From contig CAIXXC010000016.1 in NCBI GenBank assembly GCA_903923205.1, forward strand, positions 1-37,633: DNA of 37,633 bases. Direction: 5' to 3'. The position numbers were made by a program, and so were the translations under genes. The notes beneath the pieces are model-generated. The model saw only the letters and a program-made list of their open reading frames with translations. It made no database searches and had not been told where the DNA came from. This DNA comes from an uncultured Rhodospirillales bacterium. Lineage in GTDB: Bacteria; Pseudomonadota; Alphaproteobacteria; ATCC43930; CGMCC-115725. Numbering within the stretch: the first letter of the stretch is position 1; each line of letters begins with the position of its first letter. Of this stretch, positions 4,346 to 15,029 are shown one piece after another.

Positions 4346-4424
4346 GTCGGCGGCGGCGCTGGACAGCGGGTGACTATCATTTATATAGTTATCCATCGCG
4401 CCTCTCAAGGCGCCTGCGGAGGCT

Positions 4425-5156
4425 ATGTGGATGCCCGATCCTGCCATTCTGGTGATAGGCGCCGGCGATGCCACCGGGGGTGCGATTGCCCGCCGGTTTG
4501 CTCGTGAAGGCTTCGTTGCCTGCGTTGTCCGTCGTAACGCGGATCGACTTGATCCGCTCGTGGCGACCATCACGGCAGAGGGCGGGCGCGCCGTCGCCTT
4601 CGGTGCGGACGCCCGCGACGAAGATCAGATAAACGCACTTATCGATCGTATCGAGAACGAGATCGGACCGATCGAGGTTGCCGTCTTCAATATCGGCGCC
4701 AATGTGCGTTTCCCCTTGGGCGAAACAACGTCGCGCGTTTTCAGAAAAGTATGGGAAATGGCCTGTTTTGCCGGATTTCTGACCGGTCGGGCGGTCGCAG
4801 GCCCGATGCAGGCGCGTGGGCGCGGCACGATCCTGTTCACTGGCGCCACGGCGAGCCTGCGGGGCGGGAGCGGCTTTGCGGCCTTCGCGGCAGCCAAGTT
4901 CGGTCTGCGTGCCCTCGCCCAGTCGATGGCGCGCGAACTCGGACCCGCTGGCATCCATGTCGCCCATATCGTCATCGACGGTGCGATCGATACCGCCTGG
5001 ATCGCCGAGAATTTTCCCGAAAGCCATGCCCTGAAAGACCGGGATGGCATCCTTAACCCCGAGCATATCGCAGAGACATATTGGCAAGTTCATCGCCAGG
5101 AGCGTACGGCCTGGACGCATGAACTTGACCTGCGCCCCTGGATCGAAACCTTCTGA
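4425..5156 (+). CDS. SDR family oxidoreductase with Tyr-to-Phe change at the catalytic site
   Basis: This 243-residue short-chain dehydrogenase/reductase has an N-terminal Rossmann nucleotide-binding motif (VIGAGDATGGAIA, residues 10-22) and an NNAG-equivalent at about 89-92. A Ser is present in the TGATAS strand (Ser144). The expected YxxxK motif reads F154-A-A-A-K158, so the general acid/base Tyr is absent while the Lys is kept. The protein is therefore either an atypical SDR or one that binds cofactor without classical redox catalysis. The ATG at 4425 is used; an ATG two codons later is also possible. It is followed after 13 bp by the isomerase gene, with a GGAG site in the gap, so the two are probably co-transcribed. 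Confidence 0.86.
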   Translation: MWMPDPAILVIGAGDATGGAIARRFAREGFVACVVRRNADRLDPLVATITAEGGRAVAFGADARDEDQINALIDRIENEIGPIEVAVFNIGANVRFPLGETTSRVFRKVWEMACFAGFLTGRAVAGPMQARGRGTILFTGATASLRGGSGFAAFAAAKFGLRALAQSMARELGPAGIHVAHIVIDGAIDTAWIAENFPESHALKDRDGILNPEHIAETYWQVHRQERTAWTHELDLRPWIETF

Positions 5157-5169
5157 CGGAGACCGCACG

Positions 5170-5760
5170 ATGCCCACCCCGATCGAATTCTTCCTCGACG
5201 TTGGCAGCCCGACCACCTATCTCGCCTGGACCCAGATGCCCGGCCTTGCCCAGCGAACCGGATCGACCATCGCCTATCGCCCGATGCTGCTCGGCGGCGT
5301 CTTCAAGGCAACCGGCAACGCCAGCCCTGTCGAGGTGGCCGCCAAGGGCGCCAACATGATGCGTGATATCGAGCGTTATGCCGAATTCTATGGGGTTCCA
5401 TATCGCGTCAGCCCCTATTTTCCGATCAACACGCTGGCCCTGATGCGCGGTGCAGCGTCCTGCGCGCCCGGCGGTGAGCTTGAGCGCTATCTTGGTGTGA
5501 TCTTCAGCGCCTTGTGGGAGCAACAGCGCAACCTCGGCGATCCAGCCGTGCTGCGCGAGGTTCTGACCGCTGCGGGCTTTGATGCGGAGGATTTGTTTGC
5601 GCGGGTCCAGACCCCTGAGGTCAAGCAGGCCCTTGTCAACACGACGGAAGAAGCGGTTCGCCGCGGTGTCTTCGGCGCGCCGACATTCTTTGTCGGCGGC
5701 GAGATGTTTTTCGGCCAGGACCGTCTGGCGATGGTAGAGGAATACGCCAAAAGAGACTGA
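5170..5760 (+). CDS. 2-hydroxychromene-2-carboxylate isomerase family (DsbA/kappa-GST fold)
   Basis: This protein of about 196 residues belongs to the DsbA-fold isomerase group that includes 2-hydroxychromene-2-carboxylate isomerase and kappa-class GST. The N-terminus FFLDVGSPTTYLAW places the conserved Ser at residue 13, where DsbA has its first Cys. The cis-Pro loop is GAPTFFV, followed by the typical FGQDRL ending. In naphthalene and related pathways this enzyme isomerises a glutathione-dependent intermediate. The ATG at 5170 has GGAG 8 bp upstream. An in-frame start at 5044 would overlap the SDR heavily and is rejected. Its pairing with the SDR and the OCH-like hydrolase suggests an aromatic or alicyclic degradation role, but the substrate cannot be read from sequence. 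Confidence 0.88.
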   Translation: MPTPIEFFLDVGSPTTYLAWTQMPGLAQRTGSTIAYRPMLLGGVFKATGNASPVEVAAKGANMMRDIERYAEFYGVPYRVSPYFPINTLALMRGAASCAPGGELERYLGVIFSALWEQQRNLGDPAVLREVLTAAGFDAEDLFARVQTPEVKQALVNTTEEAVRRGVFGAPTFFVGGEMFFGQDRLAMVEEYAKRD

Positions 5761-5832
5761 TCCCGCTGTGTCCGTGGCAACCCACGCCGGCTAGAAGGGA
5801 AAACGAAAGTCGCACCCGTGGTGTCAGCCGCG

Positions 5833-6126
5833 CTAGGCTCGCCGGGTTGGGCCGTTCAGCGCGGACCGGAACCACCCCGATAGATTGCGCAACTCGGCGA
5901 TCAAACCACGCCCGCGACGAGTTCGGGCGACATCGATCCAGATCGACTGGCGCGCGCCTCTGTTGAACAGGGCATCGATCTGCGACCGGGCCTCGACAAA
6001 GGCGGAAAAGGGATGGGCATGAAGACCGGTCTTGCGATGGGTGTCCGTGATTCTCACCCGCCAGCCCCGGGCTTCGCGCTCTGCAACCAATTCATGATCG
6101 CGATAGATCGTCGTCTGCATCGTCAT
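5833..6126 (-). CDS. Small hypothetical protein
   Basis: This is a basic 97-residue protein with no family I recognise. The N-terminal half (MQTTIYRDHELVAERE, then WRVRITD) looks like a short beta-rich domain, followed by a probable helix and an Arg-rich tail. AGGGAA lies a suitable distance upstream of the ATG at 6126; an ATG two codons later is possible. It is convergent with the isomerase gene. The start context and amino-acid pattern favour a real gene, but this is a moderate call. Confidence 0.5.
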   Translation of the reverse strand: MTMQTTIYRDHELVAEREARGWRVRITDTHRKTGLHAHPFSAFVEARSQIDALFNRGARQSIWIDVARTRRGRGLIAELRNLSGWFRSALNGPTRRA

Positions 6127-6324
6127 CCGGGCAGTTCCCTGTCAGCCTGCTTCCTCAAGCAGCAGGAGCAAGCCGGATGCCACGCGCGAAAGCCCCGGGA
6201 ATTTCGATATTCTCCATAAAATACATATGGTTATATAAACTCTACCGAAGCTGCGTCGGCGGCGCCGGCGGGGGTCGCCCGGCAGAAACTGCCGTCTCGC
6301 GCGGCGGGATCGACCGGGATTGGT

Positions 6325-6696
6325 TCAGGCCATCGGGATGATTGTCTTGCCCACGGGCGCGATACTCAGCCTCGCGAGCTTCAGGTGAGCCCAGGCAAAG
6401 GGCAGGCCAATGATGGTAAGCGCGAAGCCGAGCGCCAGGATCAGATGACCAAGGCAGAGCCACCACCCCGCCAGCACAAACCAGAAGATGTTGCCAAGCG
6501 TGCTCACCGCACCCTCATTCCCGGCGACCACCTCATGACCAAACGGCAACAGGGAGTAGCGGGCAATCCGAAATGCTGCCGGCGACCAGGGTATGAACAC
6601 AATCGTCACAGCCATCAGAACCGAGGCGATCAGCCAGCCGAGCGCCATCGCCAAACCGCCAAAGACGAGCCAGAGAATATTCAGGATAAGGGTCAA
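6325..6696 (-). CDS. yccF: YccF family inner-membrane protein
   Basis: This 123-residue protein is almost entirely hydrophobic and matches the YccF/DUF307 family. The family pattern is an N-terminal ILNILWLVFGG, then VFIPWSPAAFRIARYSLLPFG, a central GNIFWFVLAGWW, and a closing ALTIIGLPFAWAHLKLARLSIAPVG. Two repeated YccF units of about 50 residues are visible, giving probably four or more membrane segments. The cellular role of the family is not well established. It sits alone on the minus strand between two unrelated genes. Confidence 0.88.
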   Translation of the reverse strand: MTLILNILWLVFGGLAMALGWLIASVLMAVTIVFIPWSPAAFRIARYSLLPFGHEVVAGNEGAVSTLGNIFWFVLAGWWLCLGHLILALGFALTIIGLPFAWAHLKLARLSIAPVGKTIIPMA

Positions 6697-6857
6697 AAGA
6701 GCGATCTCCGTCCGTCACGCCAGCACGATGGTGATGGCTTGACGACTTGGCGGGGAGAAATCGCACGTCGTCAAGCCGGATCGGCCCTGCGGGACATGGA
6801 CAGGCTTCGCGCGCGACGACAAAATGGCCGCCCAAGATCAAGAGCTGAGGAACAGCC

Positions 6858-7250
6858 ATGGACCTGATTCGCTTTTTCGAAACGCCAGACCGCGGATCGA
6901 CGTTCGAGACACACGCGCTCACCTTTCCAACCTCGTTCACCGACGCCTACGGCAATGTCTATGGCCTCAGCAAACCCTTCGAGATTGCCAGCGCGATTTT
7001 CGCCGAACTGCCGGACGCCCTCGACCAGCATTGGCATGGGGCGCCCAATCGCCAACTCGTCGTCGTCCTGACCGGTCGTCTCGAGGTCGAAACCACGGAT
7101 GGCGGGCGCCGCCACTGGGGGCCGGGTGATATCTTCATGGCAGATGACACCAGCGGCAAAGGCCACAAGACCCGGGTGCTTGAAGGACCGGCAAAGCTGC
7201 TGTTCCTGCGCGTGGCATCAGATTTCAAGATCGCCGAAGTCGTCAGTTGA
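6858..7250 (+). CDS. Cupin domain protein
   Basis: This 130-residue single-domain cupin has metal-site candidates His58 and His60 (QHWHGA), Gln66 and His103. The second cupin motif begins at GPGDIFMADD, around residue 88. The length is typical of small monocupins, and a GAGGAA site precedes the ATG. The metal and substrate cannot be predicted. Gln in place of the usual Glu in motif 1 is seen in some cupin branches. No operon partner is evident: the upstream gene is divergent and the downstream gene is convergent. Confidence 0.85.
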   Translation: MDLIRFFETPDRGSTFETHALTFPTSFTDAYGNVYGLSKPFEIASAIFAELPDALDQHWHGAPNRQLVVVLTGRLEVETTDGGRRHWGPGDIFMADDTSGKGHKTRVLEGPAKLLFLRVASDFKIAEVVS

Positions 7251-7331
7251 CTCCTGGCGGCGCGCGGACATGAGCGAAAGCGATGCTATGCGATCCGTTG
7301 TCATCGTCCACACAGAGGCCGACAGCGCTTC

Positions 7332-9326: not shown

Positions 9327-10862
9327 ATGACGGTCTTGAGGCTCATCCTCGGCGATCAACTGTCGCCCGATCTTTCTGCGCTGACCGGGCTCGATCCCCG
9401 GAACGATATTGTTGTGATGATGGAAGTGCGCGAGGAAAGCACCACCGTCCCGCACCACAAGCAGAAGATTGTTCTGGTGCTGTCGGCGATGCGGCACTTC
9501 GCCGAGGCACTGCGCGGGCGCGGCGTGCGCGTCGATTATGTCTTGCTCGACGATCCCGATAATACCGGCGCCTTCACGACCGAGGTGGCACGGGCAATTG
9601 CCCGGCATGACCCGAGACGGATCGTCGTGACAGAGCCGTCGGAGTGGCGTGTGCGCACACACATCGAGGGCTGGGCGTCGGTTCTCGGCATCGCGGTCGA
9701 GATCCGTGCCGATGATCGATATTTTGCCAGTCATGACCGGTTTTCGCTGTGGGCGCGGGGGCGGCGGAGCTGGCGGATGGAGCATTTCTATCGCGAGATG
9801 CGGCGGGAGCATAACCTGCTGATGGACGGCGCGGTGCCCGCGGGCGGGGAATGGAACTACGATCATGCCAACCGCAAAAGCCTGCCCGCGCGGACAATAC
9901 CCCCCGCCAGGCTGCGCTTTCCGCCCGATCCGACGACGCGGGCGGTCATGGCGCTCGTCGAGCAGCACTTCCCCGATCATTTCGGCACGCTTGATGAATT
10001 CGGCTGGCCCGTGACTCGCGCCGATGCGCTGCGCGCGCTCGATCATTTTATCGCGCAAGGACTATCGGAATTCGGCGATTACCAGGACGCCATGAAAATC
10101 GGCGCGCCGTTTCTCTACCACTCCCTGCTCGCGCCGACCCTCAATCTCGGGCTGCTCGGCCCGGCCGAGGTTTGCCGCGCGGCAGAAGCCGCCTGGCGGT
10201 CAGGGGCGGCACCGTTGAACGCGGTGGAAGGTTTCATCCGCCAGGTGCTGGGCTGGCGCGAATATGTACGGGGCGTCTATTGGAGCTTGATGCCGGATTA
10301 CGCCGCCATGAACGCGTTGCAGGCGAGCAGACGCCTGCCATCACTCTACTGGACCGGTCGAACCGATTTGCGCTGTCTGCGCGAAGCGATCGACGGCACC
10401 ATCCGCTATGCCTATTCGCATCATATCCAACGGCTGATGGTGACCGGTAACTTCGCCCTGCTGGTTGGCGTCACGCCCCACGAGATCGAGCGATGGTATC
10501 TCGCTGCCTATGCCGATGCGTTTGAATGGGCCGAGATGCCCAATACCCTCGGCATGGCCGTGTTCGCCGACGGCGGTCGGATGGCGTCGAAACCCTATGC
10601 GGCATCGGGGGCGTATATTGATCGCATGTCCGATTTCTGTGCGGGCTGCCGCTATGATGTGAAACAGAAGAGCGGCCCGGACGCCTGTCCCTTCAACTAT
10701 CTCTACTGGGCGTTTCTGATCCGCCAGAAAGACCGGCTTTCCGATAACCCCAGGATGGCGATGCCTTACCGAACCCTGGCGGGATGGTCGCCCGATCGCG
10801 CTGCGCTTGTCCTTGCCGACGCAGACGCCTTTCTGGATCAGCTGGATGATCATAAGGATTGA
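9327..10862 (+). CDS. phrB: FeS-type (6-4) photolyase / cryptochrome-like protein
   Basis: This 511-residue protein belongs to the FeS-BCP branch of the photolyase/cryptochrome family, which uses FAD and light to repair (6-4) photoproducts. The N-terminus (LRLILGDQLSPDLSAL) is the lumazine-binding Rossmann domain. The C-terminal helical domain holds the FAD site, with the signature ALLVGVTPHEIERWY and an MPNTLGMAVFADGG stretch. Four cysteines positioned to bind the [4Fe-4S] cluster are at 350, 438, 441 and 454 (CAGC then C), the same numbers I recall for Agrobacterium PhrB. The ATG at 9327 begins the family-typical N-terminus. It is downstream of a DCC gene and upstream of the tRNA-Val element boundary. 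Confidence 0.93.
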   Translation: MTVLRLILGDQLSPDLSALTGLDPRNDIVVMMEVREESTTVPHHKQKIVLVLSAMRHFAEALRGRGVRVDYVLLDDPDNTGAFTTEVARAIARHDPRRIVVTEPSEWRVRTHIEGWASVLGIAVEIRADDRYFASHDRFSLWARGRRSWRMEHFYREMRREHNLLMDGAVPAGGEWNYDHANRKSLPARTIPPARLRFPPDPTTRAVMALVEQHFPDHFGTLDEFGWPVTRADALRALDHFIAQGLSEFGDYQDAMKIGAPFLYHSLLAPTLNLGLLGPAEVCRAAEAAWRSGAAPLNAVEGFIRQVLGWREYVRGVYWSLMPDYAAMNALQASRRLPSLYWTGRTDLRCLREAIDGTIRYAYSHHIQRLMVTGNFALLVGVTPHEIERWYLAAYADAFEWAEMPNTLGMAVFADGGRMASKPYAASGAYIDRMSDFCAGCRYDVKQKSGPDACPFNYLYWAFLIRQKDRLSDNPRMAMPYRTLAGWSPDRAALVLADADAFLDQLDDHKD

Positions 10863-10962: not shown

Positions 10963-11011
10963 TTGGTGGGCGCGAGAGGGATCGAACCTCCGACCACTAC
11001 GATGTCAACGT
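10963..11011. repeat. Left attachment repeat (displaced tRNA-Val 3' half)
   Basis: This 49-bp sequence is identical to 14954-15002 and comprises the 3' half of tRNA-Val from the anticodon region to CCA, minus-strand sense. Beyond 11011 similarity stops, so no complete tRNA can form here. It marks the host-element junction; host flank lies to the left. Confidence 0.92.
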
Positions 11012-11103
11012 CGTTCTTATTTCCTAACTCGTTGTATCTGTTCAACTCTGGTAGATTCGAGTGCAATTAATTGCCTAGGGATTCCCTCAATCTCGACCTA
11101 GTA

Positions 11104-11133
11104 GCTGTCTACAATCTGTCTATTAGACAGATT
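11104..11133. repeat. Left-end integrase arm-type repeats, inverted
   Basis: A degenerate copy ending CTGTCTA (11105-11111) is followed by CAATCTGTCTA at 11112-11122, and then its inverse TAGACAGATT at 11124-11133 after one base. The 10-bp inverted repeat ends on the integrase stop codon. The same 11-mer appears twice near the right end, so these look like arm-type recognition sites; a terminator hairpin is a second possibility. Confidence 0.65.
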
Positions 11134-12197
11134 CATTTTGAGACCCTGGTTCTGCCGAACGCACCCTTCATCTCACGTTGGTAGTCGGGGTGGTGCTTTG
11201 CGTAAGTGCTGTCGAGGATCTTCGGGCTCATGCCGAGAAAGCCACTGACCTGATAGGCGTCGTGGCCGGCGTTCATCAGCCAAGTGGCCGCCGTATAGCG
11301 CAGCGTGTGCGGCGTGACATGCTTGTCGAGACCGGCTTCCCGAACCACCCGGCCAAAGCCTGTCTTGACCGACGTCGTGATGGGTTTGCCATTCCACTCG
11401 ATAACCGCCCTCTTCGAGATCCCAAGACGGTGCCATCGGCGGAGATGGTGCAGCAGCCGATCTGGGATCCGCGCGGGAGGCTGCCGCTTGTTCGTCTCCG
11501 TCTTACCCTCTCGGAGCCGGTGGAAGATCCCCTTTTCCAGGTCGATCCAGCCCATGCCGGGCGTCTTCACGAACGACGCTCCCAGCACCGCATCAAGGCG
11601 GGTCCCGGTGTAAAGCGCGAGCAGAATGAAGCGTGCGATGTGGCGAGTGGTGAAGCGTCTGGTCGGCCGAACCTCGGCACAGCCCGGAGTGCGCGACACC
11701 TTCTGCACCTCGCGCAGCCGCCATGCCGTCCACAAGAGCTTTGCGACCTCGTCGGGCTCCAGGAAAACGTCTCGGGCCTTTCCCTTGGGAGGTGTGTAGA
11801 CCTCGACGACGGCGTTACAGAGACCCTAACGGCGGTGGTAGTTGATCGCCGCTCGAAGGTCTTCCAACTCGCGTCGCGCCGTCGCCACTGTAACAGCCCT
11901 GGCTGACTCGTCGTTCATTGCTCGAATGGTTACCCGGACCTTCTGCTTGGTACGCCACGTCACGTAGTCCCGGCAGGTTTTGCCGTTAACGTCAGCGAGG
12001 GTCTTGTCGCCCCACCACTCACCAAGGGTCGCGATCCGATACGTTGCCACAGCTTCAGAGGGGAGCCCCTTAATCTGCTCGGTCATATATAAGACCAGCG
12101 CCTCGGCGATCCGGTTAGTAGCTGGTGATCCTGCGCGACGACGCAGCCAAGAGCGAAAGCTCCAGGCCCCATCTATCTTGCACTTAATTGCAATATC
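11133..12197 (-). pseudogene. Tyrosine site-specific integrase, interrupted by amber codon
   Basis: The frame encodes a phage-type tyrosine recombinase. A SAM-like core-binding region (RIAEALVLYMTEQ through CRDYV) precedes a catalytic domain with LYTGTRLDAV (catalytic Arg), HTLRYTAATWL (His-x-x-Arg) and a final TYAKHHPDY bearing the nucleophilic Tyr. An in-frame TAG at 11826-11828 separates the two domains after INYHRR; the frame continues on both sides without shift, so one base change explains it. Upstream, protein-like sequence extends past the ATG at 12086 to an in-frame TGA at 12198-12200, with no ordinary start codon between. The original N-terminus is therefore also lost or altered. 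It should have driven insertion into tRNA-Val. Confidence 0.85.
12179..12194. repeat. 16-bp inverted repeat, left copy
   Basis: TGCACTTAATTGCAAT is the exact reverse complement of 13826-13841. The pair flanks the fic gene and its control region. A related palindrome, GCAATTAATTGC, lies at 11063-11074 near the left end. Possible binding site for an element-encoded protein; role unknown. Confidence 0.7.
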
Positions 12198-12291
12198 TCA
12201 CTGGACAGATAGCTGTAAGGGTACGCTTGGGAGCGTTAAGTAGGCGGCTAGAGTTATCGTCCCAGGATCCTGCGGCGCTCTTCAACCCCGC

Positions 12292-12321
12292 GCCGTTCCT
12301 TAAAGCAATTAAGGAACCGGC
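12292..12321. other. Strong imperfect hairpin
   Basis: GTTCCTTAA (12295-12303) pairs with TTAAGGAAC (12309-12317) across a 5-base loop. GCC (12292-12294) extends the stem by pairing with GGC (12319-12321) past a one-base bulge. No T-run follows on the plus strand, so a terminator is not clearly indicated. Confidence 0.6.
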
Positions 12322-12338
12322 ACCACGATACGGCTTCA

Positions 12339-12540
12339 GATCGGCCAAGTAACCGGCCAATTCTCCGAATCTATCGAGAATAACATCTCTATTTCAGTAG
12401 GTTAGGACGCCCCAATAAGCGGCCAGATGCGGGAAAGACGCATCCCGCGAAGGATCGGCCAAAAGATCGGCCAAACTGACTAGATAGACTCGGTTTACTC
12501 GTTTAAGATCATACAATTATAAAATTCATAGATCGGCCAA
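12339..12540. promoter_or_regulatory. GATCGGCCAA box array upstream of fic
   Basis: Four perfect GATCGGCCAA boxes (12339-12348, 12453-12462, 12465-12474, 12531-12540) and one variant (ACCGGCCAA, 12352-12360) lie in 202 bp. The GGCCAA cores form two tandem pairs with the same 12-bp period (12343/12355 and 12457/12469). A last single box ends three bases before the fic start codon. A further GATGGCCAA sits at 13842-13850, ahead of the EEP gene. The arrangement suggests operator sites for a regulator, possibly the Fic protein's own C-terminal DNA-binding domain. Confidence 0.75.
12494..12523 (+). promoter_or_regulatory. Candidate fic promoter
   Basis: TTTACT (12494-12499) and TATAAA (12518-12523) are 18 bp apart and could be -35 and -10 elements. 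Transcription would start near 12530, at the box just before the GTG, giving a leader of about 14 bases with no Shine-Dalgarno sequence. This is a by-eye assignment. Confidence 0.4.
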
Positions 12541-12543
12541 ACC

Positions 12544-13737
12544 GTGAACATCGAACCCGTTGAACGGATCGAGCCCGCAAGACTTGAAACTATCCCCGAA
12601 GCCATCTCAGACGTAGTGGCGGAACTCGCGGCCACGACCGCTACGCTGGGGAAATCACTTCACCCCCGGACCGCGTCCAATCTCGCCGGCCTCGTTCGGA
12701 TCATGAACAGCTACTACAGCAACCTGATTGAGGGGCATCACACTCGCCCGAAGGACATTGAACGCGCGCTCGTCGGGAACCTAGACGACGACAAAGAGCG
12801 CCGCAACCTTCAGGTCGAAGCGGCTGCGCATGTCCGTGTCCAGGAGCAAGTCGATCGTTTAGCTCTGGAAGGAAAACTTCCGGAGCCAGCCTCACGCGAG
12901 TTCATCCTCTGGCTTCATCGTGAGTTCTATAAGGGTGCCGCTCCCGAGATGCTGACCTTGCAGGTTGGTGAGTTGGAAGTCAGTATGACCCCTGGCACTT
13001 GGCGCGCGCTGCCGGAACACGATGTGACCGTCGGTCGTCATCAGCCACCTTCCAGCGATCGCGTCGCCGACTTCATGCGCTATTTTGAGGACCGGTATCG
13101 ACTAGAGCCGCTTGGGAAGTCATCGCGCATTGTTGCTATGGCTGCTGCCCATCATCGCTTTAATTTCATCCACCCCTTCCCCGACGGCAACGGGCGGGTC
13201 AGCCGCCTGATGAGCCATGCCATGGGACACATAGCCGGAGTAGGCGCGCACGGCCTCTGGTCGGTCTCCAGGGGGCTGGCACGCGGCTTGGAGAGCCGTG
13301 GCGACTACAAGGGCATGATGGATCACGCCGACATGCCTCGTCAGGGTGACCTGGATGGTCGTGGCAACCTCTCGACTCGTGCGCTGATCGAGTTCGTTCT
13401 GTGGTTCCTGAGAGTCTGCCTGGACCAGGTCAACTTCATGTCAGACCTTCTCTCAATCGACACACTGTCGCGCCGGTTCGGTAACTACGTCCGGCACAGC
13501 AACACACTAAAGCCGGAGGCCCTTAGGTTATTGGAAGAGGCACTGATCCGCGGGGAGTTCGAGCGCGGTGACGTGCCCCGCATCACTGGGCTACCGGAGC
13601 GCACAGCGCGCAGGGTCTTCAATGACGTGATTGATGCAGGCCTGCTGGCATCGGACACGCCGAAGGGGCCTGTATCGCTCCGCTTCCCCGTGGACACCCT
13701 TGATACGCTTTTCCCTAGGCTGTTCCCGGAAAGTTGA
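12544..13737 (+). CDS. Fic family AMPylator-type protein with C-terminal winged helix
   Basis: This 397-residue Fic protein carries the complete active-site motif [12 protein letters not shown] (His210 catalytic). Such enzymes transfer AMP, or another nucleotide-derived group, to a hydroxyl side chain of a target protein. An inhibitory-helix motif S59-N-L-I-E63-G is present upstream of the Fic core, which places it in the autoinhibited class II (N-terminal) group. After the core, residues from about 325 on ([27 protein letters not shown]) look like a winged helix-turn-helix, as in many stand-alone Fic proteins. The start is GTG at 12544 with no ribosome-binding site, directly behind a GATCGGCCAA box. 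It is cargo of the tRNA-Val element; target and trigger are unknown. Confidence 0.92.
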
Positions 13738-13810
13738 GCAGCCGAGGTTGGAGGGTTACGCTGTGCGGGCTGGTCAGCCCGATGGCGGCAAGCGGTCTCT
13801 ATACAGGTCC

Positions 13811-13850
13811 AATTGCAATGGCTAAATTGCAATTAAGTGCAGATGGCCAA
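13811..13850. repeat. AATTGCAAT repeats and right copy of 16-bp inverted repeat
   Basis: AATTGCAAT occurs at 13811-13819 and again at 13825-13833, 14 bp apart; its core ATTGCAAT is self-complementary. ATTGCAATTAAGTGCA at 13826-13841 is the exact inverse of 12179-12194. GATGGCCAA follows at 13842-13850, a variant of the fic box. The cluster sits in the 238-bp gap before the EEP gene and probably contains its control sites. Confidence 0.6.
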
Positions 13851-13975
13851 TTAAGCCCAGCATGTTCATCAAGAACCAATCCCGCTAACGTCCTATCCAG
13901 GCGGCCCAATCTCCAGGGCCGTTCGCATCGCCAACCGCTGATCGTGCTGGCACCTTCCCAAGATTGACATTAAAA

Positions 13976-14746
13976 ATGAACCAGGCGTCCCTCCGGCTCG
14001 TCTCGTGGAATTGCCACATGAAGTTCCACAGCAAGTGGGAAGATCTGCAAAAGCTTCGCCCCGACATTTCAATCGTACAGGAGTGTGCATCTCCATCTGT
14101 GTTGGCGAGACGAAATTTAAGTCTTGATCCAACGCAATGCCTTTGGATCAACAAGGCTGACGCAACGACAGAGGACAAGGGTCTCGGCGTCTTTGCCTCC
14201 GACGGCGTGAAGATTCGGGTTGCGGCCTGCTGGTCAGAAATCAGACGCCGATGGGATGACGACCCCTCGCGTCTAGACGTGCTGCTTCCGTTCGAGATCG
14301 TTTACCCCCGGCGCTTAAACGTCCTAGCTGTATGGTCGTTCAACAACCGGACTCGGTTAGGGAAGAAGACCATGCGGGGGCCGGTCCTCGTCGCAATCGA
14401 CGAACTCGGTAACTGGCTAACGGAGGCCCCCTCGTTGGTGATCGGCGACTTCAATAACCATCGACGCTGGGACACTTCGCGCGACCTGAACAACTTCGCC
14501 CATCACCTGACCGCGTTCGACGAGATTGGGTTCAAGAGCGCCTATCATAGCCTCAATGATATCGGGCACGATGAAGAGCCGGATCAAACCCATCTCTGGC
14601 GCGCTGGCAAGAGTTACCACATCGACTACGCATTCGGCGCTGCTGGCCTGCTTGAAGGCGCTTCATGCCGAGTGGAGCCTTTGGAACGCTGGTGTGGCAA
14701 GGGCGGCTTATCCGACCACTCGCCCTTGGTTCTCGACCTTCTCTAA
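13976..14746 (+). CDS. Endonuclease/exonuclease/phosphatase (EEP) superfamily protein
   Basis: This 256-residue single-domain protein has the catalytic signatures of the DNase I-like EEP superfamily: VSWNC (Asn12), IVQEC (metal-binding Glu36), IGDFNNH (Asp158, Asn160), HIDYAF, and the terminal LSDHSPLVL (Asp247, His248). Members hydrolyse phosphodiester bonds in DNA, RNA, lipids or protein-nucleotide adducts; the substrate here cannot be told. No signal peptide is visible, so it should act in the cytoplasm. The ATG at 13976 is preferred over a TTG four codons upstream; neither has a clear ribosome-binding site. It is the second cargo gene of the element, co-directional with fic but separated by a 238-bp repeat-bearing gap, so it is perhaps independently transcribed. 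Confidence 0.88.
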   Translation: MNQASLRLVSWNCHMKFHSKWEDLQKLRPDISIVQECASPSVLARRNLSLDPTQCLWINKADATTEDKGLGVFASDGVKIRVAACWSEIRRRWDDDPSRLDVLLPFEIVYPRRLNVLAVWSFNNRTRLGKKTMRGPVLVAIDELGNWLTEAPSLVIGDFNNHRRWDTSRDLNNFAHHLTAFDEIGFKSAYHSLNDIGHDEEPDQTHLWRAGKSYHIDYAFGAAGLLEGASCRVEPLERWCGKGGLSDHSPLVLDLL

Positions 14747-14863
14747 CGGGCTTAAGACACGCCGCATAGGGTTCGAGAGAAGGTCGGTGCGCTCCGCGAT
14801 CTCAGCATGATGACGGCGGTCGCGCGGAGTTCATCGGTGCCGCCGACCAGCATGTCCTGGACC

Positions 14864-14886
14864 CAATCTGTCTATCAATCTGTCTA
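14864..14886. repeat. Right-end integrase arm-type direct repeats
   Basis: CAATCTGTCTA occurs at 14864-14874 and 14876-14886, with a 12-bp period. The same 11-mer is found at 11112-11122 near the other end of the element. The location just inside both attachment repeats fits arm-type integrase or excisionase binding sites. Nothing else is seen in the gap 14747-14953. Confidence 0.7.
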
Positions 14887-14953
14887 GAATTGCATGAGAA
14901 TGCCAGATTGACCCGAAGGCCATCTGCTAATCTCTTGATCTTAATGGGGAAAA

Positions 14954-15002
14954 TTGGTGGGCGCGAGAGGGATCGAACCTCCGACCACTACGATGTCAAC
15001 GT
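14954..15002. repeat. Right attachment repeat inside tRNA-Val
   Basis: This 49-bp sequence is identical to 10963-11011 and overlaps the 3' half of tRNA-Val plus one flanking base. The integrase crossover probably lies within it, perhaps in the anticodon stem-loop; the exact crossover cannot be located from identical repeats. Confidence 0.92.
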
Positions 15003-15029
15003 AGTGCTCTACCGCTGAGCTACACGCCC
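14955..15029 (-). tRNA. tRNA-Val (GAC)
   Basis: The minus strand folds as a standard cloverleaf: 7-bp acceptor GGGCGTG/CGCGCCC with encoded ACCA, D-arm GCTC..GAGC, anticodon stem CTACG/CGTAG with loop TTGACAT (anticodon GAC), and a T-arm with GGTTCGATCC. It is intact even though it is the integration target: its 3' half is supplied by the element, and the original 3' half is displaced to 10963. Confidence 0.96.

Follow-up and report, generated by a model that had tools for sequence, protein, structure and literature searches.

Positions 10963–15002 of the stretch of DNA analyzed here (the window, 37,633 nucleotides in all) hold a small element lodged in a tRNA-Val gene, and the part of this island that appears worth testing is a predicted family of operators represented in front of its fic gene. 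The encoded Fic protein has a C-terminal winged helix, and the gene is preceded by GATCGGCCA sites laid out as a tandem pair 12 bp apart with a third copy 65–67 bp downstream, at the start codon. Taken as a whole, our account is that the element is an integrase-dead remnant, that Fic and a protein of the endonuclease/exonuclease/phosphatase (EEP) family are its independent passengers, and that Fic is autorepressed through the 12 + 66 bp operator; we consider this account probable, with appreciable room for doubt.

The predicted fic operator

The gene and the two candidate operator modules upstream of it are arranged as follows.

12544–13737, plus strand: fic, starting at GTG; class II Fic protein of 397 residues (PF02661) with a C-terminal winged helix at about residues 323–382
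12453–12543, plus strand: main predicted fic operator; GATCGGCCAA at 12453 and 12465 (12 bp apart) and at 12531 (66 bp later, with 3 nt between it and the GTG)
12339–12429, plus strand: second, upstream and weaker predicted operator module; CGGCCA at 12342 and 12354 (12 bp apart) and at 12420 (66 bp later)

The protein matches the Pfam Fic family (PF02661, 1.3e-13). It carries both the catalytic motif HxFx[DE]GNGRxxR and an N-terminal inhibitory motif, SNLIEG ([ST]xxxE[GN]), which together make it a class II Fic, and it is predicted to be an AMPylation enzyme, transferring adenosine monophosphate (AMP). The nearest solved structure is that of CccR (PDB 7XUX), with which a profile built from 16 family members aligns through the winged helix (E-value 7.7e-21; profile positions 19–367 of 395 against residues 20–345).

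Matches to Fic were found in 218 plasmid records (E-value up to 1e-40) and in none of the phage records. On annotated plasmids its neighbors vary, and include the toxin-antitoxin genes AbiEi/AbiEii, BrnTA and HipA as well as plasmid partition genes. The protein is best described as a putative mobile, stand-alone AMPylation enzyme of a type recurrent on alphaproteobacterial plasmids.

Close homologues on other plasmids and on chromosomes have the same kind of operator layout. All 15 have the start-proximal site (0.2% of shuffles), and 10 of them have the pair at exactly 12 bp (0% of shuffles). The third site lies 0–11 nt before the start codon in every close homologue, and its distance from the proximal member of the pair is 65–67 bp at 14 of the 15 loci, the remaining locus being without a pair at that spacing. 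When exact 6-mer matches are counted over 27 upstream regions, 96 fall at a lag of 12 and 20 at a lag of 13, with about 2 at most other lags. Between homologues the sites are 91%–94% identical, the spacers 34%–36% and the upstream DNA 26%; the sites are thus far more conserved than their surroundings, which argues that the pattern does not merely reflect recent common descent. Of 13 plasmid Fic loci that had been held out, 9 had the operator under a criterion fixed before they were scored (slightly tightened as run, to 7-mers); the rate in shuffles was 0.3%, and 8 control windows out of 626 also qualified.

In distant homologues the same geometry is found with other site words. Between subfamilies the word is ATCGGCCA, ATCGGCA, ACCGGCA or TAGTGGCA, and a more distant Fic subfamily has CGGACA repeats 12 bp apart at the start. 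The word varies with the recognition segment of the winged helix: KTSERTARNT is found with ATCGGCA, GTGERQARRI with CGGACA, GVAPRTARAV with TAGTGGCA, and a fourth helix sequence with ATCGGCCA. Within the 4.5-Mb genome of the window the pair ATCGGCCA-N4-ATCGGCCA occurs once, so a wider regulon of the exact pair is unlikely at this stringency.

A Fic gene on a viral contig (L234) also has a duplicated pair-plus-single module upstream, as in the window, which suggests that duplicated operator modules recur.

What may act at the conserved sites

CccR of Yersinia pseudotuberculosis (PDB 7XUX) is a class II Fic protein that represses its own promoter; its C-terminal domain binds there, close to the −35 and −10 boxes (PMC9755527). 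Like the Fic of the window it combines a class II Fic domain with an N-terminal inhibitory helix and a C-terminal helix-turn-helix domain. The two proteins differ in that their overall sequence similarity is low and in that CccR is a type VI effector, a role that nothing suggests for the window protein. By position and conservation, the fic gene of the window appears to have what a CccR-type Fic would need, conserved operator sequences in the region of its promoter and start.

If the window protein behaves as CccR does, from which we also extrapolate its toxicity and its having a target, fic would be restrained twice: autorepression would limit the gene, and the N-terminal inhibitory helix, whose SNLIEG motif would act as it does in other members of class II, would limit the enzyme. 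In this model the C-terminal winged helix would bind the tandem GATCGGCCA pair about 80 bp upstream of fic, and would also bind the third site 65–67 bp further on, which overlaps the ribosome-binding region before the start codon. A promoter between the sites would be shut by Fic itself, and the ribosome-binding region would be closed too.

Several observations weigh against this model or limit it. Binding of Fic to the operator and repression of fic are both predictions, made by analogy with CccR. The AlphaFold model of Fic, built from three sequences, is too poor to use (pLDDT confidence score 42), so the winged helix is placed by sequence alignment. A promoter scan found no sigma-70-type promoter. 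The window sites are direct repeats, three copies in the same direction 12 and 65–67 bp apart, whereas CccR has an inverted-repeat operator, AGATAATCAT-N26-ATGATAATCT, consisting of two 10-bp boxes 26 bp apart. The strict criterion failed at 4 of the 13 held-out loci, all of them the most distant homologues (40%–45%), three of which have weaker CGGCA-type sites by eye. Operator word and recognition helix could both simply follow phylogeny, a confounder for which the comparison is uncontrolled. The paired-site pattern is also unspecific by itself: its use alone to search for Fic was rejected, since it had the right spacing at 150 loci in viral contigs and genomes and only 4 of these were Fic loci. 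The case for an operator is therefore carried by position, spacing and conservation. As a spacing control, N3 (period 11) matched in 4 of 385 genomes, the right spacing in 48 of 372, and none of the 51 N3 loci held Fic; some of the right-spacing matches look like coding repeats.

The conserved sites could also be real but be the target of a factor other than Fic, or work at the level of the mRNA by masking its ribosome-binding site. Either would suit the position of the third site, which occupies the ribosome-binding region in every close homologue, and binding by Fic is itself predicted. We nonetheless regard this explanation as unlikely. Many genera have these Fic genes, on plasmids or on chromosomes and among varied neighbors, which makes a single external regulator improbable, and the site word varies together with the recognition helix of the enzyme. 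The nearest solved relative, moreover, binds its own promoter through the C-terminal domain (PMC9755527). The upstream pair, some 80 bp away, also counts against it. Considered together, these data are more consistent with autorepression by Fic.

Two other groups of class II Fic proteins invite comparison. The SoFic or Sofic single-gene anti-phage systems (NF046030; PDB 3EQX, 3ZCN) resemble the window Fic in class, in having a C-terminal domain, in being stand-alone genes and in their mobile context, but against the SoFic equivalog model NF046030 the window protein scores 28 bits, the curated cut-off being 550. The accessible portion of the report on Sofic describes regulation by a downstream 47-residue protein, AS1, and describes no operator (PMC12249575). 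CbFic2 of Coxiella burnetii, which shares with the window Fic its class and a C-terminal helix-turn-helix domain, changes its enzymatic state on binding DNA (PMC10628234); in assays it bound random DNA, with no specific operator identified. A literature search for Fic operators, outside which most subscription papers fall, returned only CccR, with shown repression. No description of a direct-repeat operator of 12 + 66 bp was found in the literature searched, and the predicted arrangement would be a variation on CccR-type autoregulation.

Fic and EEP as separate passengers

The second intact gene of the element follows fic.

13976–14746, plus strand: EEP family protein of 256 residues with all catalytic motifs

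The sequence-only reading had named the cargo as a class II Fic protein and an EEP-family hydrolase, and both identities hold, the first on PF02661 and SNLIEG and the second on a fold match and invariant motifs. PF03372 scores 17.3 bits on the EEP protein, below the gathering score of 24.5. The predicted fold (pLDDT 74) matches LINE-1 endonuclease and TDP2 (Foldseek E-values 7e-11 to 1e-8, TM scores of about 0.55–0.65), and the motifs WNC, QEC, GDFN, HIDY and SDH are invariant in three divergent sequences. The protein thus has the predicted fold and catalytic motifs of the EEP superfamily members TDP2, LINE-1 endonuclease and exonuclease III, from which it differs in sequence (about 15% identity). 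It is probably a phosphodiesterase or nuclease that depends on metal.

Its bacterial homologues are all distant (25%–41%) and thinly spread over phyla, and some are on megaplasmids of Cytobacillus, Paenarthrobacter and Klebsiella. They have no gene context in common: a sigma-70-like neighbor recurs in two genomes, and the settings elsewhere are unrelated. In those two genomes, which belong to one genus (L053, L054), the EEP homologue lies 14–32 bp downstream of the sigma-70-like gene, rpoD-type on inspection.

The sequence-only reading had further taken the pair for a two-enzyme defense, toxin or interference module, and had proposed looking for the two genes side by side in other genomes. The homologues examined do not bear this out, fic and EEP being unlinked in them; as regards adjacency, the outcome is the one that reading had itself named as telling against it. 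Among 385 genomes at the level of the class, EEP was found in 6 (E-value up to 1e-8) and Fic in 12 (E-value up to 1e-80), counts made at different E-value limits. Both occur in only two of these genomes, that of the window and one other (G318), where the copies are on different contigs. Within flanks of up to about 10 kb, no EEP gene was found at other Fic loci and no Fic gene at 10 EEP homologues, and no linkage was found in genomes, plasmids, phage records or viral contigs. On a Sinorhizobium medicae plasmid (L326 2674–3645), a gene annotated as a 3′-5′ exonuclease lies 18 bp downstream of a Fic homologue; it is known by its annotation, without comparison to EEP.

That the island brought in a two-gene anti-phage or toxin-antitoxin module is, in our estimate, very improbable. 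The two genes are on the same strand, about 240 bp apart, and are the sole intact genes of a small tRNA element. The PADLOC SoFic model matches Fic (7.4e-24), and class II Sofic proteins protect against phage (PMC12249575). Against this stand the lack of adjacency in any homologue examined, the 28 bits of Fic against the equivalog cut-off of 550, the absence of any PADLOC or PHROGs match to EEP, and a gap that seems too wide for a tight operon.

EEP enzymes such as TDP2 cleave a 5′-phosphotyrosyl linkage that joins a protein to a nucleotide, and AMPylation of a hydroxyl side chain by Fic creates a linkage of the same chemical type. By this analogy EEP might be the antidote of an AMPylating Fic toxin, a structurally unrelated de-AMPylase; we attach hardly any weight to the idea, and no description of such a pairing was found in the literature searched. 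Fic and EEP are better read as independent passengers than as a two-component system, and the candidate “new Fic-EEP system” has been struck from the list.

The decayed island and the meaning of the predicted operator

The remaining features of the element are its ends, its integrase and the tRNA gene.

10963–11011, minus strand: left direct repeat, an exact copy of 14954–15002; read as the displaced native 3′ part of tRNA-Val and the chromosomal attachment half; flank ACTTTCC as at the same-genus site without the insert
11112–11133: left candidate arm-type integrase sites, AATCTGTCTA at 11113–11122 (plus strand) and 11124–11133 (minus strand)
11136–12086, minus strand: tyrosine-integrase pseudogene (PF00589), C-terminal part 11136–11735 and N-terminal part 11829–12086, in one frame
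11826–11828, minus strand: in-frame TAG stop in the integrase
14864–14887, plus strand: right candidate arm-type integrase sites, AATCTGTCTA at 14865–14874 and 14877–14886, 12 bp apart
14954–15002, minus strand: right direct repeat, read as the element-borne copy, which completes the intact tRNA-Val
14955–15029, minus strand: intact tRNA-Val(GAC), found by ARAGORN

The perfect 49-bp repeats and the displaced tRNA 3′ half beside an intact tRNA-Val, both claimed from the letters alone, are confirmed: the repeat is exact, far longer than chance allows, and, since the intact tRNA overlaps its right copy, corresponds to the 3′ two thirds of the tRNA gene. Integration into the 3′ part of a tRNA gene leaves the tRNA completed by the copy that the element carries, with the native 3′ part shifted to the far end of the insert. 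AATCTGTCTA occurs exactly four times in the window (0.03 expected) and nowhere outside the two ends of the element, about 100 bp inward of the left repeat and 70–90 bp inward of the right one, placed as expected of arm-type sites to which the integrase would bind. The G+C content of the element is about 0.54–0.62, versus 0.62–0.66 in the right flank.

The adjacent tyrosine integrase of the earlier claim is present (PF00589 match at 11136–11735 on the minus strand, 5.7e-10), but it is broken. It aligns across the TAG with an intact Bradyrhizobium integrase at 44%, and it has no counterpart to the N-terminal region of a related integrase; no relatives were found in viral contigs. With its integrase a pseudogene the island cannot move by itself, and it would be an immobile remnant unless helped, or unless the TAG, seen in one assembly, is a sequencing error.

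A genome of the same genus (G001) has tRNA-Val without the insert. The tRNA and the polyprenyl-synthetase-like gene that follows it are syntenic with the window at 83%–84%, and past the tRNA 3′ end the sequence reads ACTTTCC, as at the left junction of the window and unlike TTTTCCCC at the right junction. This agrees with the native 3′ part having been displaced to the left end; the match extends only 7 bp beyond the core and, as a point against the reading, the contig stops 1.1 kb past the apparently unoccupied site, so that the junction is support and not proof. Beyond tRNA-Val in the same genome another open frame (L006 2355–3245), which we take to be CoA-transferase-like, replaces the photolyase-related gene of the window (9327–10862); the left flank is therefore rearranged too.

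The small tRNA-borne element proposed earlier is thus supported, as a tyrosine-integrase island in the 3′ part of tRNA-Val(GAC), by the repeats, the putative arm-type sites at both ends and the apparently unoccupied site of the congener. The opposite view, that the region is no insertion, its repeat a chance or ancestral partial duplication of the tRNA and its genes ancestral, might appeal to the short congener contig and to the divergence of the congener from the left flank beyond those 7 bp, but it is scarcely tenable given the exact repeat, the integrase remnant and the arm-type sites. In addition, among 43 genomes of the order, full-length EEP is confined to the genome of the window (three others have weak partial matches) and Fic occurs in 5, and the fic-EEP segment was not seen at the same place in relatives lacking the tRNA repeat.

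Like other tRNA-integrated islands and satellites with tyrosine integrases, the element has a 3′ tRNA repeat, an integrase beside one attachment site and predicted arm-type sites at both ends; it differs in being very small, in its broken integrase, and in that no excisionase, replication or transfer gene was seen. Inside it, a near-palindromic TGCAATTAATTGC-like word occurs three times (11062–11074, 12179–12194 and 13826–13841), two of the copies forming an exact 16-bp inverted repeat on either side of fic.

Two other Fic sequences were noted. G001 carries a Fic-gene fragment at a non-tRNA site (L025, G001:C638 505–597; residues 296–324 at 65%), on a contig that also has homologues of window positions 4356–7251; it is a putative relic of another Fic copy. 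In genome G085 the start of a Fic homologue (L049, 60%) lies some 300 bp away from a tRNA-Thr (6432–6506). This locus was considered as a similar island and rejected, as no tRNA repeat was found.

The tRNA-Val island is of an ordinary type and has decayed. The predicted operator offers a rule for a large mobile Fic family: an operator with 12 + 66 bp spacing that extends to the start codon, its word varying with the DNA-binding helix of the enzyme. It would provide a sequence signature for finding such Fic genes, and a naturally occurring set of helices with their matching operators for the study of DNA recognition by winged helices. If true, it would explain how stand-alone class II Fic genes that lack an antitoxin stay safe on plasmids and islands.

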